From assembly GCA_948467545.1 (NCBI GenBank), contig CAOKER010000010.1, forward strand, positions 1 through 64,000: a stretch of 64,000 bases of DNA, in the 5' to 3' direction. This document shows positions 18,270 to 25,372 of the stretch, one piece after another; the first letter of the stretch is position 1; the number at the start of each line of letters is the position of its first letter. Under the pieces are notes generated by a model, which was not told the origin of the DNA, did no database searches, and saw only the letters and a program-made list of their open reading frames with translations. The position numbers and the translations under genes are program-made. This stretch comes from an uncultured Eubacteriales bacterium (GTDB lineage Bacteria > Bacillota > Clostridia > Oscillospirales > CAG-272).

Positions 18270-19483
18270 TTATTTCTCCAGCGCCGCTTTTGCCTCGGCA
18301 ATCAGGTTGAGCAAAATCATATCCTGCTCGTACTGATTTTGCGCGTAATCAAAATCGATCTGCGCATCTTCATAATGCCGTTTGGCAAGCTCCATTGCCT
18401 TTTCGCACACATCAATATCGTATTTGGCAGATGGCAGACCGTTCTTTGTTTTGCTTTTTTCATTGCGCAGGGAGTTGTATCTCTTCTACCAAATATCGTG
18501 ACCGAAGCCATCCTTCTTCTTTTGCTTCGGCATATTCAGTTTGTTTTTTGAAACATAGGCGCAGGGAACACCATACTCCGGATTGACGGTACTGCAATAG
18601 AGTTGGTTGTGGGCATTTGTTATAAAGAAAAACTTATGACAGATGTCGCATTGCCAAGAGTAATGTCCGGCGGCAAGTCCCTCAAACATATCGGTCACAT
18701 AAAAGTTGAGCATGCGGTCGAAATGGATTCGGCGGCCGAGCATAGCCGAACCGTCTTTATTTTCAAGTGCAACGGGCGCCATCCAAACTCCCGGCTCAAG
18801 CGTAAAATTGTGTGTGATCTCGGTGGCATTTAGCTCCTCAATCCACTCTAAAACATCTTCACTTCCGAAAAACTCCTTGGTGTATCCTGCAATCCAAATC
18901 TTATCACGATAGCCGTTCTCGGTAAGGTTTACAAAATACATCATCGCAACCTTATAAAAATTAAAGGTGTCAGCGCAAAGATAAATATAGGATTTTATAA
19001 ACTCGGCAAGAACAATAACATGGTCATACATTGCCGTGCCTTCGGAAACGGAATTGATATTGGGATCGGCATAGATGAAAAACTGCTATTCCACTCCTTG
19101 ATTTTTTCATCACTGAGAAGCAAATCAATATGTTCGTATTCGCCCTTGATATTAAAATAAGAAAATGGCTTTATTTTCTTTATCTGTTTTATTATTTTTT
19201 CGATAATCTCTCTAATATTTATAAATAGTTCATCAGAATAATTTTCTGTGTTCAGGCGGTTATATAAATCATTGAGTTTGTCACCCGTCTCAAAAATAGA
19301 TATCAGCTTGTCTGCAGGGATATTTAATATATCATGAGCAATGATTCCAAGCGGTAAAGTTTTACCGCCTAAAATAAAATCATCGCCTACAAAGTCAACC
19401 GAGAATTTATAAAAATTAGCATCGCCGACCGGTTTTGTTTCTATCAGTCTTATGTGCCTTCCTCCGCACTCTAATTCTAACAT
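18270..19483 (-). pseudogene. DUF6076-like protein with frameshift and in-frame TAG
   Basis: The first 130 residues (MLELECGGRHIRLIETKP onward) run in one frame to about 19085. There a one-base shift is needed to continue as FFIYADPNINSVSEGTAMYD, then YSWQCDICHKFFFITNAHNQ and the basic LNMPKQKKKDGFGHDIW. A TAG at 18488-18486 interrupts, and the same frame resumes KRYNSLRNEKSKTKNG and ends at 18270. The CDICHKFF ... LYC cysteines look like a zinc-binding knuckle. Overall layout resembles DUF6076 proteins of Clostridial elements. The stop at 18270 is 36 bases before the sigma-like gene, so both belong to one operon, and both are broken. Confidence 0.65.
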
Positions 19484-19697
19484 CTTATCTGTACCATAAA
19501 CCGTACTCTGCGATAATTATATCATAAAAAGTTTTTTCTGTCATTAGAAATTACAAATAATTCAGAAACAAATTTTTGCGTTCACAGCATTTTATGTAAT
19601 TTTTGAATTTTCAGCCATTAGGTAATTAGGAGAGCGAAAGCACCGGTTCCGCCGCCGATGTTTTCGCTCTTACTTTTTTATGAAAGGGGAAATTCCT
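19484..19697 (+). terminator. Divergent intergenic region with terminator hairpin at 19631-19678
   Basis: AGAGCGAAA (19631-19639) pairs with TTTTCGCTCT (19661-19670), followed by TTACTTTTTT. It lies 20 bases before the ATPase start, so it may attenuate that gene. The left half is AT-rich and should hold the promoter of the leftward DUF6076-like gene. Confidence 0.55.
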
Positions 19698-20717
19698 ATG
19701 GCTGATAAAAAAGCAAAACTTGCTGTTATTGACGGCGAAACCTTGATGGATATGAAACTGCCTCCGACAAAGTTTTGTGTAGAAACTTTGTTGCCGCAAG
19801 GCATGTGCATCCTCGGCGGTGCTCCCAAGATAGGCAAATCGTGGTGGGTGCTGGATCTGTGCATTCACATCGCAAAGGGTGAACCGATATGGGATTTAAA
19901 AACCAACAGAGGAACGACCTTGTATCTTTGTTTTGAAGATACCCTGCGCTGTGTTCAGAATCGCCTTCTGTGCATCACGGATGAAGTTCCTCCCAATGCG
20001 TTCTTTGCTACCTCTGCCGGAACTTTATCAGACGGGCTGTGCGAACAGATTCGTGATTTTGTCAAAGAGAATCCCGATACGGTTTTTGTTGCCGTTGATA
20101 CTTTTCAAAACGTGCGCAACAACAATATCGATACCTCTTACGCAAATGACTACGATGAAATTCGGTTGCTGAAACAGTTGGCAGACGAACTGAATATCTG
20201 TCTTCTGCTTGTGCACCACCTTCGTAAGCAGGGCGACAGTGATCCGTTCAATAATCTGACCGGCACCACAGGTATTGTAGGCGCAGTCGATACTGCTTTT
20301 GTTCTTGACAAGAGCAAGCGCAATGCTGACAGCGCCACCCTCTACTGCACGGGGCGTGACGTGGAAGACCGTCAGCTCGAGCTGCAGTTTTCCAAAAAGG
20401 ATTTCGTTTGGAAAATGCTTCATGACAGTATGGAAAACCGTGAAATGCTGCTGCCGAAAGAGATGGAACTGCTGATTGATTTTATGAAAATAAAAAAATC
20501 ATACAGTGGCAGTAACACCGAGTTCTGTGAAATGTATAACACGCATACCGAGCAGTCAATATCTCCGAGAGGACTCAAGCGATTGATGAACCTTTGGGAG
20601 TACAGTCCCATTGATTTCGGTTTGAGTTTTCGCAGTCACCGCAGTAACGGAGTCAGGCTCTTGGAAGTAAATTATTCTTCCTCTGCCAGTGACGATAGTG
20701 TCGCTCATGACGAATAA
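19698..20717 (+). CDS. RepA-like AAA_25 ATPase of an integrative element
   Basis: A 339-residue protein; the start at 19698 has AAAGGGGAA upstream and removes six residues encoded by the SD region itself. It matches the AAA_25/RepA hexameric helicase-like family: CILGGAPKIGKSWWVLDLC is Walker A, TVFVAVDTFQNVR is Walker B, and LLLVHHLRKQGDSDP with LTGTTGIVGAVDTAFVLD are the RecA-core motifs. These proteins are common in Clostridial mobilizable elements, upstream of mobC and the relaxase, and are thought to help replication of the excised circle. The C-terminal 90 residues resemble a winged-helix tail. It appears intact. Confidence 0.82.
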   Translation: MADKKAKLAVIDGETLMDMKLPPTKFCVETLLPQGMCILGGAPKIGKSWWVLDLCIHIAKGEPIWDLKTNRGTTLYLCFEDTLRCVQNRLLCITDEVPPNAFFATSAGTLSDGLCEQIRDFVKENPDTVFVAVDTFQNVRNNNIDTSYANDYDEIRLLKQLADELNICLLLVHHLRKQGDSDPFNNLTGTTGIVGAVDTAFVLDKSKRNADSATLYCTGRDVEDRQLELQFSKKDFVWKMLHDSMENREMLLPKEMELLIDFMKIKKSYSGSNTEFCEMYNTHTEQSISPRGLKRLMNLWEYSPIDFGLSFRSHRSNGVRLLEVNYSSSASDDSVAHDE

Positions 20718-20979: not shown

Positions 20980-21297
20980 ATGAGTGAAAAAAGGCGGCAT
21001 GATAAAACGCTAACTATTCGGCTTACTAAATCCGAAAAAGAACGTATCGAGCGAAACGCAAAACGCGCCAAGCGGAGTATTACCGACTATATCGTTTTAC
21101 TTTCGCTCGAAACACCCATCCATGTTGCAGAGGATGTAAAGCCGTTGCTGATCGAACTCAAGCGCATCGGCAACAACCTGAATCAGATTGCAACGAAGAT
21201 AAATTCGGGTGTGTTTCAGTCGTATGATTTTCAAGATGTGGTAGACGAACAGAAGAAAATCTACGAACAACTATTAGAGATTGCGAGGAAGGGATAA
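20980..21297 (+). CDS. mobC: MobC relaxosome accessory protein
   Basis: A 105-residue protein. ATG at 20980 is chosen because AAAGGA is then 9 bases upstream; the ATG at 20971 touches the SD. The N-terminal part is a ribbon-helix-helix DNA-binding region (LTIRLTKSEKERIERNAKRA then ITDYIVLLSLE) and the C-terminal part carries the MobC signature LLIELKRIGNNLNQIATKIN. MobC proteins bind oriT and help the relaxase open the DNA. The stop overlaps the relaxase start by one base (TAATG), so translation is coupled. The gene is intact although the relaxase is broken. Confidence 0.9.
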   Translation: MSEKRRHDKTLTIRLTKSEKERIERNAKRAKRSITDYIVLLSLETPIHVAEDVKPLLIELKRIGNNLNQIATKINSGVFQSYDFQDVVDEQKKIYEQLLEIARKG

Positions 21298-22753
21298 TGG
21301 CAACCGTAAATTTTATTCCTGAATCCAATCAAAGTATCAGCGCAATGAAGGCGGTGATAGATTACTGTTTGCAGCACAAAAAGGTTGAAGATGAGGACAG
21401 CGGTCGCAGACTTGTGGGCGGTGTGAATTGTAACGGTGAGCATTCTTTTACCGAGTTTATGGTGACAAAGAATGCTCATAAAAAGAAGGGCGGAATTACT
21501 TTTTATCATTACGTGCAATCCTTTTCACCAAAGGAAAATGTCACCGCCGAGCAGGTTTACAAAATCGGTTTGGAGTTCGCAGAAAAAGCGTGGCCCGGTC
21601 ATGAAGTTTTAGTGACAACCCACACCGATGCCGAGCACCTTCATAATCACTTTTTTATAAACTCTGTGCATTATGAAAACGGAAATAAGCTCAGGCCGAA
21701 TCCTGGAACGCTGACTCGGTTGCGAACTCTCAGCGACAGTATTTGTAACGAACACGGCCTTAGTGTTTTAAAACCGTATAGAAAAGACGGTGCAAATATC
21801 TCAAGCTGAGAGTACCGTGCCGCATCCAAGGGCGAGAGTTGGAAGTTCAAACTAATTTCCGACATTGACTTTGTTATGAACCGAAGCGGTAGCCGAGCTG
21901 ATTTTATAAGAGAAATGAATCGGCTCGGTTATCAAATCACATGTACAGATGAAAGAAAATATATTACTTTCACTTGCCCAAACGGAATGAAGTGCAGGGA
22001 CATACGACTGCACGATGACAAATATTTGAAAGGAGTATTAGAGTATGAGTTCACAATCAGGAAACGGCTCACAGCAGAACATGGCGGGATATGCTGAAGC
22101 AGAAAAAACACACGGATACTATCCGAACTGGAGCAGATTCCGTATCAGCCGCGGGTGTATGCGATCCCAATAGAACAGCGCAAGCGGGAGAGCAAACTGC
22201 TAGAGGACGCGGCGGAGTTTCAGCCGAAGCTGTATCAGCTGATAGAAGAACTGGCGACACGGGAAGAACTGACCGACCACTGCACAGAGATACAGAATAT
22301 CGAGACGGAGTATATGGAGAGGACGGTTCAGGATGTGGTGAATACCAACGCGGATACAGTGGCTCAGATGCAGACGATCGTAGAACAGGCTGGGAATAAT
22401 CAAGAGCGGTTTATTTTGGATTGCTCCGAAACCATTTCCAAGAGTACCAAGACTCTGGACAGTTCGATAGAGAAACTGCAACAGAAGATTATGAAAATAA
22501 TCATTGCCACAGCGGTGTCGGCGGTAGCACTGTCGGTGTTGGTCTGCGTGGTATTCTGGAAGCTGGTAGCATAATCGACAGCACATCCGAAGATCCGGAG
22601 GAACGCCGAAAACGAATCGAAGCACAGGAAAACGCTTCAAACCTCGGTGCGATGATCGGTCTCGCCGTCGGCGCTATCGCCGCCATAAGTGAGGCTGATA
22701 ATACTGAGGACAAAACTACAGAAGAAACTGAAACACCTACAATGAAGATGTAG
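21297..22753 (+). pseudogene. MobA/VirD2-type relaxase with nonsense and frameshift lesions
   Basis: The relaxase domain is clear: HTDAEHLHNHFFINSVHYEN is the HxH...N metal motif, and RRLVGGVNCNGEHSF precedes it. TGA at 21807-21809 interrupts SS-stop-EYRAASKGESWKF, where relatives read SSREYRA (CGA to TGA). The same frame runs to TGA 22095-22097. From about 22106 the downstream frame (-1) continues through a Gly/Arg/Asp-rich linker, TAA at 22397, then SRAVYFGLLRNHFQEYQ and the conserved tail DPEERRKRIEAQENASNLGA, ending MKM at 22753. One missing base near the A tract 22103-22108 plus three C-to-T changes would restore about 485 residues. Mobilization by this protein is not expected now. Confidence 0.75.
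22045..22574 (+). pseudogene. MobB-like coiled-coil membrane protein overlapping the relaxase
   Basis: A second reading frame inside the relaxase gene encodes a protein with a long helical region (QRKRESKLLEDAAEFQPKL, then IQNIETEYMERTVQDV and STKTLDSSIEKLQQKIMK) and a C-terminal membrane helix (IIIATAVSAVALSVLVCVV). ATG at 22045 has AAAGGAG nine bases upstream and reads MSSQSGNGSQQN, then must shift by one base near 22103-22108 to join the 22155-22574 frame. The same one-base loss repairs the relaxase frame. The layout recalls the mobA/mobB overlap of IncQ plasmids, where MobB anchors the relaxosome in the membrane. The homology is not established, only the arrangement. Confidence 0.55.
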
Positions 22754-22770: not shown

Positions 22771-23127
22771 ATGACTAAAAAAGAGCGCGAAAAAGAATTG
22801 CGCTGTTATCCGGCGGCACTGACCGCCGCTGAAGTTGCGGAGATACTGAGAGTTAGTATCAAAACTGTCTACAAGCTTATCAAAGAAAAAACTCTGCCGG
22901 CGGTTAAGGTCGGCAGAGAAAATCGCATTGCCAAATCGCAGCTGATCGATTATTTACAGCAAAAGGACAGAACAAGTTCGAACCCTAAGGTCTATTATCT
23001 TGAGAAAACTTCCGATAATGTCTGGACTTGCAAACCGACTTGTGATATTGTTCGTGTTTGCAAAAACAAAAAAGGAGTGATAACAAATGGATGCCAAAAC
23101 CACACTTGCCGCCAGCGTACAGGCTAA
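22771..23127 (+). CDS. Excisionase-type HTH protein (Xis)
   Basis: A 118-residue protein with an excisionase-family (HTH_17) winged helix at residues about 15-65: ALTAAEVAEILRVSIKTVY, LIKEKTLPAVKVGRENRIAK and SQLIDYLQQ. AGAAAGGAG lies before the ATG. The C-terminal half contains six cysteines (WTCKPTCDIVRVC ... GCQNHTC), an addition to the usual 60-70 residue excisionase. The last four cover the overlap with the integrase start (23087), so part of that tail may be a by-product of the overlap. It should bind the attachment sites and steer the integrase next to it toward excision. Confidence 0.82.
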   Translation: MTKKEREKELRCYPAALTAAEVAEILRVSIKTVYKLIKEKTLPAVKVGRENRIAKSQLIDYLQQKDRTSSNPKVYYLEKTSDNVWTCKPTCDIVRVCKNKKGVITNGCQNHTCRQRTG

Positions 23128-24283
23128 AAAGGGTCGCCTCTATGCCGTGATACAAGTAAAGGAAAATGGTAAGACAAAACCCGTGTGGCGCGCCCTCGGT
23201 CTTCCAGAAGGCACAAACAAATCAAAGGTGAACAAAGCCTACCGAGAGGTAGTAAAAGCCTTTGAAAATGATTACGCCGAGCAGCTTGCCCGAAATGCAA
23301 AGCCTGCCTCGGATATTCCGATCTTCGATTATATGTGCGCTCACTATAAAAAGATCGAAAAGAATATCCAAAAGAGTACCGCCGAAAGCTACCATGGAAT
23401 GATCTACGGTAGAATTCGGCGGTATTTTACTGCCCACAGTAATCTGACGGTCGGCAACATCACCTCAAAGGATATCGAGGATTTTTATGATTGGATGTTC
23501 GAGTCGGGTGTCGTTGCTAACACCGTCATTCACTATCACACCGTCCTGCACAGTGCCTTCAAAAGAGCGTTCAAGGATGAGCTGATAGATGCTAACCCCT
23601 TCGACCGCATCGACCGACCGAAGAAAAACAAGTTCACCGGTGAAAATTATTCCGAGGACGAGCTGATAACAATGCTCGGACTCCTGCGCGGCGATGTTAT
23701 CTATCCTGCGGTAATGTTAGCGGGTGGCTTAGGGCTACGCCGAAGCGAAGCCTTGGGCGCCCGTTGGTCGAGAGTTGATTGGGATAAGCGTACCATTCTG
23801 CTCGACACTAAGGTTATCGAGTACAGAGAAAACGGCAAGGTTATCGTAGAGCCTGTAGAGGAAATGAAAAACAAATCAAGCCGCCGAACCCTTCCTCTGC
23901 CGGATCCCGTCTACGAAATGCTGTGCGAGGAACGGGAGAAGCAAGACCTGTATCACCGAATGTTCAAAGGCAGCTATAACCGCAAATTCGATGACTATAT
24001 CTGCGTAGATCAGCTCGGCGAACTGCTAAGACCGAACAGAGTCACCCAACGCTTCTCTGCTCTTATTGAACGATACGATCTGCGAAAGATTCGCTTCCAC
24101 GACCTACGGCACACCTTCGCAAGTATCCTTATCAATCAGGATGTACCCTTGCTGAATGTGTCGACCTTCCTTGGTCACTCCGACCTTGCAACAACGGCAA
24201 ATATTTATGCCCACCTTGATAAGTCCAAGAAACAGGAAAGCGCTGATGTTATCAGCAATATCTTTAATAAAGCAAAGGAATGA
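23087..24283 (+). CDS. int: Tyrosine site-specific integrase
   Basis: A 398-residue integrase of the Tn916/phage Int type; ATG at 23087 follows AAAGGAG. An N-terminal arm-binding domain (residues 15-60, LYAVIQVKENGKTKPVW) and a SAM-like core-binding domain (residues 80-180) precede the catalytic domain. Catalytic residues are visible: the first Arg in LGLRRSEALGARW, HDLRHTFAS for the His-x-x-Arg pair, and GHSDLATTANIYAHL with the final His and the nucleophilic Tyr. All are present, so it should be active. It overlaps the Xis gene by 41 bases. The tRNA-Ser gene 1 kb downstream is a candidate attachment site. Confidence 0.93.
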   Translation: MDAKTTLAASVQAKKGRLYAVIQVKENGKTKPVWRALGLPEGTNKSKVNKAYREVVKAFENDYAEQLARNAKPASDIPIFDYMCAHYKKIEKNIQKSTAESYHGMIYGRIRRYFTAHSNLTVGNITSKDIEDFYDWMFESGVVANTVIHYHTVLHSAFKRAFKDELIDANPFDRIDRPKKNKFTGENYSEDELITMLGLLRGDVIYPAVMLAGGLGLRRSEALGARWSRVDWDKRTILLDTKVIEYRENGKVIVEPVEEMKNKSSRRTLPLPDPVYEMLCEEREKQDLYHRMFKGSYNRKFDDYICVDQLGELLRPNRVTQRFSALIERYDLRKIRFHDLRHTFASILINQDVPLLNVSTFLGHSDLATTANIYAHLDKSKKQESADVISNIFNKAKE

Positions 24284-25283: not shown

Positions 25284-25372
25284 TGGCGGAAGCGGTGGGA
25301 TTCGAACCCACGGTACCGTTAGGTACAACTGATTTCGAGTCAGTCCCGTTATGACCACTTCGATACGCTTCC
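25284..25372 (-). tRNA. tRNA-Ser (anticodon CGA)
   Basis: On the minus strand the acceptor arm GGAAGCG/CGCTTCC encloses a D arm, an anticodon arm with the loop CTCGAAA (anticodon CGA, reading UCG), a long variable arm with a GTACC/GGTAC stem, and a T arm containing GGGTTCGAATCCC. A long variable arm is diagnostic of tRNA-Ser among these anticodons. The discriminator is G and the CCA end is encoded (25286-25284). The gene marks the junction between the accessory island and the ATP synthase region. Its 3' end faces the island, as expected for tRNA-targeting integrases. Confidence 0.95.

Follow-up and report, generated by a model that had tools for sequence, protein, structure and literature searches.

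In intact mobile elements of Clostridia, one DNA stretch very probably encodes both a MOBP relaxase and, nested inside it, a membrane protein that would act like MobB/MbeB; in the window, i.e. the whole stretch of 64,000 nucleotides analysed here, the copy of this pair is broken. Comparison of relatives strongly supports the proposal of the first-pass annotation that a genuine overlapping relaxase/MobB-like pair with the IncQ mobA/mobB layout is present in a Firmicute element, and alignment of the sequences establishes the existence of the nested gene, its conservation, its dual-frame constraint and the location of its start signal. The MOBP-type relaxase is composed of a catalytic domain, a linker and a conserved tail; the nested protein, of roughly 140-190 residues, would be read in +1 with a ribosome-binding site and a start codon of its own, signals that are buried in relaxase codons just past the catalytic domain. 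The nested genes represent an undescribed membrane-protein family. They are fully embedded in relaxase genes of chromosomal elements from common gut Clostridia, and enlarge the short list of known relaxase-embedded genes.

The window element and its damaged gene pair

The genes in this part of the window form the mobilisation module of a Clostridia integrative mobilisable element (Table 1). This assignment is based on the presence of an integrase and a relaxase and on the absence of a PF02534 coupling protein from the genome; profile searches of the host genome found one PF03432 relaxase and no PF02534 protein. Firmicute integrative mobilisable elements, as reviewed in PMC5704250, likewise carry their own relaxase, accessory protein and tyrosine integrase, lack a secretion system and depend on a helper; a word search of the review for overlapping genes gave no result. 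A tRNA-Ser gene (25284-25372, minus strand) lies near the integrase side of the element and is a possible attachment site; direct repeats of at least 16 bases, sought around the element as attachment sites, were not found. A DUF6076 protein (18486-19031, minus strand), located beside two ORFs without Pfam match, is possibly element cargo.

Table 1. Coordinates, in the window, of the features of the mobilisable element
Feature	Position	Strand	Evidence
AAA ATPase (AAA_25, RepA-like), same element	19680..20717	+	Pfam AAA_25, E 7e-22
NikA/MobC-like relaxosome accessory protein, abutting the relaxase on its 5' side	20980..21297	+	PF21983, E 6e-19; PF05713, E 4e-10
Relaxase (MobA/VirD2-like), disrupted	21297..22753	+	PF03432, E 1.4e-36; four intact relatives compared
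Relaxase catalytic domain, as far as the first nonsense codon	21297..21806	+	PF03432
Embedded start signal of the nested gene: Shine-Dalgarno AAAGGAG and ATG	22025..22047	+	Sequence; homologous site in 67/67 relatives scored
Nested MobB-like gene, +1 relative to the relaxase, disrupted	22045..22574	+	Nested-family profile, E 6e-46 on 22098-22571
Relaxase tail, conserved, 3' of the nested gene	22575..22753	+	Family profile match; relaxase-wobble pattern
HTH_17 excisionase-like protein	22771..23127	+	TIGR01764, E 2e-13
Tyrosine integrase	23087..24283	+	PF00589, E 1e-25

The nuclease domain of the relaxase scores 126 bits against PF03432 (cut-off 24.6), and the window translation contains the N-terminal Tyr (VIDYC) and the H...HxH metal motif (THTDAEHLHNHF), both conserved across the relaxase family. 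The profile of this family matches four separate frame pieces of the window, in order, and the relaxase tail is recognised at 22421-22753. The two frames that had been distinguished in the first-pass annotation, one for the relaxase linker and tail and the other for a coiled-coil protein that ends in a hydrophobic helix, are indeed present in a +1 relation across 22045-22574.

The window copy was read against four intact relatives, L003, L006, L007 (93% identical) and L008; homologues at 79-93% DNA identity have both frames open. Four lesions were found: nonsense codons at 21807-21809 and 22397-22399, a loss of 2 bases after 22086 and 1 extra A in the run at 22103-22108. The four relatives agree with each other at all these sites. 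The first nonsense codon, which comes shortly after the end of the PF03432 match, had not been mentioned in the first-pass annotation. Both frames do shift register together between 22086 and 22108, as had been claimed; however, the proposed cause, a one-base deletion in the A tract, is ruled out by the alignment, where the net -1 shift is the sum of the two indels. Similarly, the stop at 22095 had been taken for a substitution, but the same letters occur out of frame in L007 and L008 and the T is common to all four relatives: this TGA is unaltered sequence unmasked by the frameshift. At 22397 the nonsense change is genuine, although the C suggested as the original base is present in no relative.

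Thus, the relaxase frame of the window is interrupted by two nonsense codons and two indels, while the nested frame, read from the ATG at 22045, reaches a stop at 22171-22173 after 42 codons and is open from 22098 in the shifted frame. Judged from its sequence, the window copy is a decayed pair with both genes broken (pseudogenes), and since the same lesions break both, the element is not expected to be mobilisable via its own relaxase. It is very unlikely that the element is actually intact and only appears broken through a mistake in sequencing or assembly: one indel falls in an A run and a single assembly exists, but there are four lesions, two of them nonsense substitutions outside homopolymers, and the four relatives are concordant there. 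Assembly error is possible for the indel in the A run, and hardly for all four lesions.

Evidence for coding in both frames

A first search yielded three genomes with the second protein intact; in these, a relaxase of about 480-580 codons wholly encloses the second ORF in the +1 frame. In order to avoid bias, the query was then limited to relaxase residues 1-252, ending where the overlap begins. Two peptide patterns gave 123 confirmed matches, of which the best 80 form the sample; it is biased to this relaxase subfamily but not to the nested gene. Among these best 80 clostridial loci, 69 contain an ORF in +1 that starts from relaxase codon ~250 and is 142-187 codons long; they form 10 clusters at 40% nested identity, and all 69 ORFs encode a C-terminal hydrophobic stretch or transmembrane helix, as determined by hydropathy. 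Of the 68 overlaps used, all have a fully open +1 frame and none a fully open +2 frame; in a matched upstream relaxase segment of the same genes, the corresponding values are 0/68 and 1/68.

The start signals are also conserved. In the window, the Shine-Dalgarno AAAGGAG lies inside relaxase Lys-Gly codons, and the ATG at 22045 inside Tyr-Glu codons. A nested start codon is found in all 67 loci scored (ATG in 56, GTG in 8, TTG in 3), with a Shine-Dalgarno a few bases 5' of it, within Lys-Gly/Glu codons, in 67/67; the relaxase residue at the nested start is variable (Y, H, N, R, L, D, C). Under synonymous recoding with each gene's own codons, ATG or GTG starts are expected in ~31 of the 67 loci and were seen in 64; for the Shine-Dalgarno the average expectation is 37, and 67 were seen. 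At loci without an intact nested ORF the start is present in 3/10, two being the broken copies L050 and L073.

Substitutions per site were compared by relaxase codon position in 86 close pairs. For positions 1/2/3 the catalytic domain gives 0.085/0.060/0.278, the overlap gives 0.215/0.108/0.089 and the tail gives 0.150/0.112/0.330; the pairs are not independent, and the values are counts rather than a fitted model. Relaxase codon position 1 is the wobble position of the nested frame. The flip of the wobble to the nested frame in the overlap, and its return to the relaxase frame in the tail, argue that both frames are coding; the nested frame dominates the overlap, since the highest substitution rate falls on its wobble position. 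Conversely, when the overlap is recoded keeping the nested protein, a mean of 7.7 relaxase stops appears and the relaxase frame is open with a probability of 0.004, a value indicating that selection holds this frame open. Within the overlap, conservation is lower for the relaxase residues than for the nested ones, and is poor in the relaxase outside a TGWE motif, which is also conserved in relaxases without the nested gene.

A chance open frame is ruled out by the codon-position rates, by the start-signal null and by the 68/68 open overlaps. More specifically, the relaxase alone might be real, the +1 frame being kept open by the composition of a low-complexity linker with no protein made. The linker is indeed rich in G/R/D/S and poorly conserved, and 15% of the synonymous recodings that keep the relaxase residues leave the nested frame without a stop, so a single open case could be due to chance; yet the +1 frame is open in 69/80 loci belonging to 10 clusters at 40% nested identity, start codon and Shine-Dalgarno are conserved beyond the recoding null, substitutions gather at the nested wobble position and each member has a hydrophobic helix at its end. 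This explanation is thus extremely improbable, and on the sequence data already largely refuted by the codon-position pattern. The opposite possibility is that only the nested gene matters in the overlap, with the relaxase frame acting there as a stop-free read-through spacer. The better conservation of nested residues and the existence of relaxases missing most of the overlap segment speak for it; against it are the relaxase frame being open in spite of the 0.004 expectation and the conservation of the TGWE motif in the overlap, also where no nested gene is present, and of the downstream tail. As a full account of the overlap it is unlikely; the evidence would agree with most of the segment serving as a spacer, and the proposal is thus a nuance of the two-gene reading more than a rival.

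Distribution, probable loss and exchange of the nested gene

The nested-family search identified 14 places in 13 of 391 Clostridia genomes; together with L005, 15/15 lie inside a relaxase in the +1 frame. Intact copies of the overlapping pair are widespread in mobile elements of gut Clostridia; Merdimmobilis hominis An559 (L018) is one carrier. No match was obtained when the nested protein was searched against plasmids by tblastn, and a scan of viral contigs with the relaxase profile gave no relative. Two members of the clostridial family, L010 and L055, are in contigs binned as Prevotella and Bacteroides, by binning error or possibly by cross-phylum transfer. In one subfamily (L005, L063 and L074) the relaxase has a long tail 3' of the nested gene, with SEL1-like repeats recognised by eye.

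The relaxase tree comprises 79 sequences, the truncated L067 being excluded, and 10 of these have no intact nested ORF. Two of them, L050 and L073, are broken copies in which fragments still match the nested profile, and L080, cut short at 329 codons, is possibly a third. The remaining ones mostly have shorter linkers, and several retain the TGWE motif and the tail. Relaxases without an intact nested ORF are dispersed over the tree, where well-supported branches force at least five changes; repeated loss of the nested gene would be the simplest reading of this unrooted tree. Intact homologues with a single open frame, named in the first-pass annotation as the finding that would speak against the overlap, do exist, but as a minority of 10 relaxases, 2-3 of which are broken copies; their existence indicates that the nested gene is not universally required.

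Exchange of the nested gene is seen when L009 and L010 are compared with the window and with L011. Along most of either flank, L009 and L010 are about 83-97% identical to the window; over relaxase bases ~520-1340, which span the whole nested gene, the match of L009 to the window is 45-80%. Within the same bases L009 matches L011 mostly at 77-100%, against 45-83% outside. By these identities, an ~800-base block with the whole nested gene has been swapped by recombination inside the relaxase gene, the block and its flanks following different lineages. The exchange is seen in one lineage, and a bearing of it on the choice of the helper is a hypothesis.

A broader and more tentative proposal is that the end of the catalytic domain may be a conserved coding slot, from which exchangeable membrane adaptors are launched across MOBP/MOBQ relaxases of Proteobacteria, Staphylococcus and Clostridia. 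The slot would be marked by a motif of the type K-[GE]-x-x-[EDF]-[YHN]-E, with codons that double as a Shine-Dalgarno and a +1 ATG; the adaptors would be unrelated, or diverged beyond recognition, and recombination inside the relaxase gene could replace one by another, perhaps to suit different helper coupling proteins.

Possible role of the nested protein and its plasmid counterparts

AlphaFold2 predicts the nested protein to be all helical, with a last helix of ~100 residues including the membrane segment; the coiled coil is judged from this predicted long helix. A search of solved structures returned generic helical proteins only, and the family is absent from Pfam and NCBIfam as searched: in 53 members, for which 25 Pfam families were listed, no significant match was to PF17511, PF03904 or PF04837. 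Membership in IncQ MobB (PF17511), pC221 MobB (PF03904, DUF334) or ColE1 MbeB (PF04837) was rejected for lack of a sequence match. Profile comparison by hhalign gave a 46% probability with IncQ MobB and no similarity to MbeB or to pC221 MobB, in a staphylococcal set where the pC221 sequence ends at the record end (82 residues) and the other three are complete. The best reading is that the nested proteins form an undescribed family, MobB-like by layout, whereas membership in the known MobB families is unsupported.

A MobB-type function would entail a requirement for mobilisation, relaxosome stabilisation and membrane localisation; the function of R1162 MobB is reportedly the subject of work by Parker and Meyer in 2007, cited in PMC3297438. 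The nested protein is probably a membrane tether for the relaxosome. As its architecture and the characterised plasmid counterparts suggest, the C-terminal helix would anchor it in the inner membrane, the coiled-coil stalk would reach the relaxosome, and the protein would help the relaxase-DNA complex to dock on the coupling protein of a helper conjugative element. A tail-anchored stalk near the coupling protein fits both the all-helical prediction with its membrane segment and the location of the gene inside that of the relaxase. A different job, e.g. entry exclusion or regulation, seems improbable. It is favoured by the missing sequence match to characterised MobB proteins, by the many roles of membrane coiled-coil proteins and by ColE1 MbeD, also nested and annotated as mobilization/exclusion; but start slot, frame, size and topology are those of RSF1010 MobB and ColE1 MbeB, both mobilisation proteins.

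Relaxase/mobB overlaps are already known in Firmicutes, from the pC221-type staphylococcal plasmids. The +1 frame and the start slot are common to pC221, pS194, a S. hominis plasmid, a Waltera plasmid, RSF1010 and ColE1; in ColE1 mbeB, RSF1010 mobB and pC221-type mobB, the +1 start is at a similar site with a purine-rich Shine-Dalgarno in the preceding codons. The profile alignment extends to the slot in the pC221-type and Waltera relaxases, where the start falls on the equivalent residue; in RSF1010 and ColE1 the weakness of the relaxase alignment means that the slot is matched by motif and position.

ColE1 has a MOBP relaxase, and its mbeB is fully nested in +1, with a Tyr-Glu start and AAAGGAG in the upstream Lys-Gly codons; however, the hydrophobic segment of MbeB is mid-protein, its family is PF04837 and a second nested gene, mbeD, is present. 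In RSF1010/R1162 (IncQ1), mobB lies within mobA in a different frame (PMC2200642). This frame is +1, with the start at a His-Glu codon pair 3' of the catalytic domain, and RSF1010 MobB resembles the nested family in its coiled coil, its C-terminal hydrophobic segment and the weak profile similarity given above; conversely, the RSF1010 relaxase is typed MOBQ and fused to a primase, and PF17511 does not match the nested family. The Firmicute plasmids pC221 and pS194 start mobB at the equivalent relaxase codon, in +1, with the Shine-Dalgarno in Lys-Gly codons, and their MobB has a coiled coil followed by a membrane segment; differently from the clostridial genes, the overlap is partial, as mobB extends ~140 codons beyond the relaxase end in the complete records, and the C-terminal part of MobB is DUF334, to which the nested family shows no similarity. 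A literature search found the RSF1010 overlap described and did not find the clostridial family, which is weak evidence given that few subscription papers were covered. Since proteins that otherwise do not match begin at one start slot in ColE1, RSF1010, pC221 and the clostridial elements, a single ancient overlap can now be tested against a recurrent solution, and so can the idea that the nested protein determines which helper an element can use.

Nested genes of this kind will be missed by gene callers that reject full overlaps. In the staphylococcal records the frame is open from the slot within the relaxase (L090:1301-1999, L091:1265-1954); public annotation starts the DUF334 gene late (L090 1538, L091 1499), omitting the overlapping N-terminal part. 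In L088 and L089 the IncQ plasmid annotation has MobB and the primase part but lacks a full-length MobA, an omission that the full overlap probably explains.
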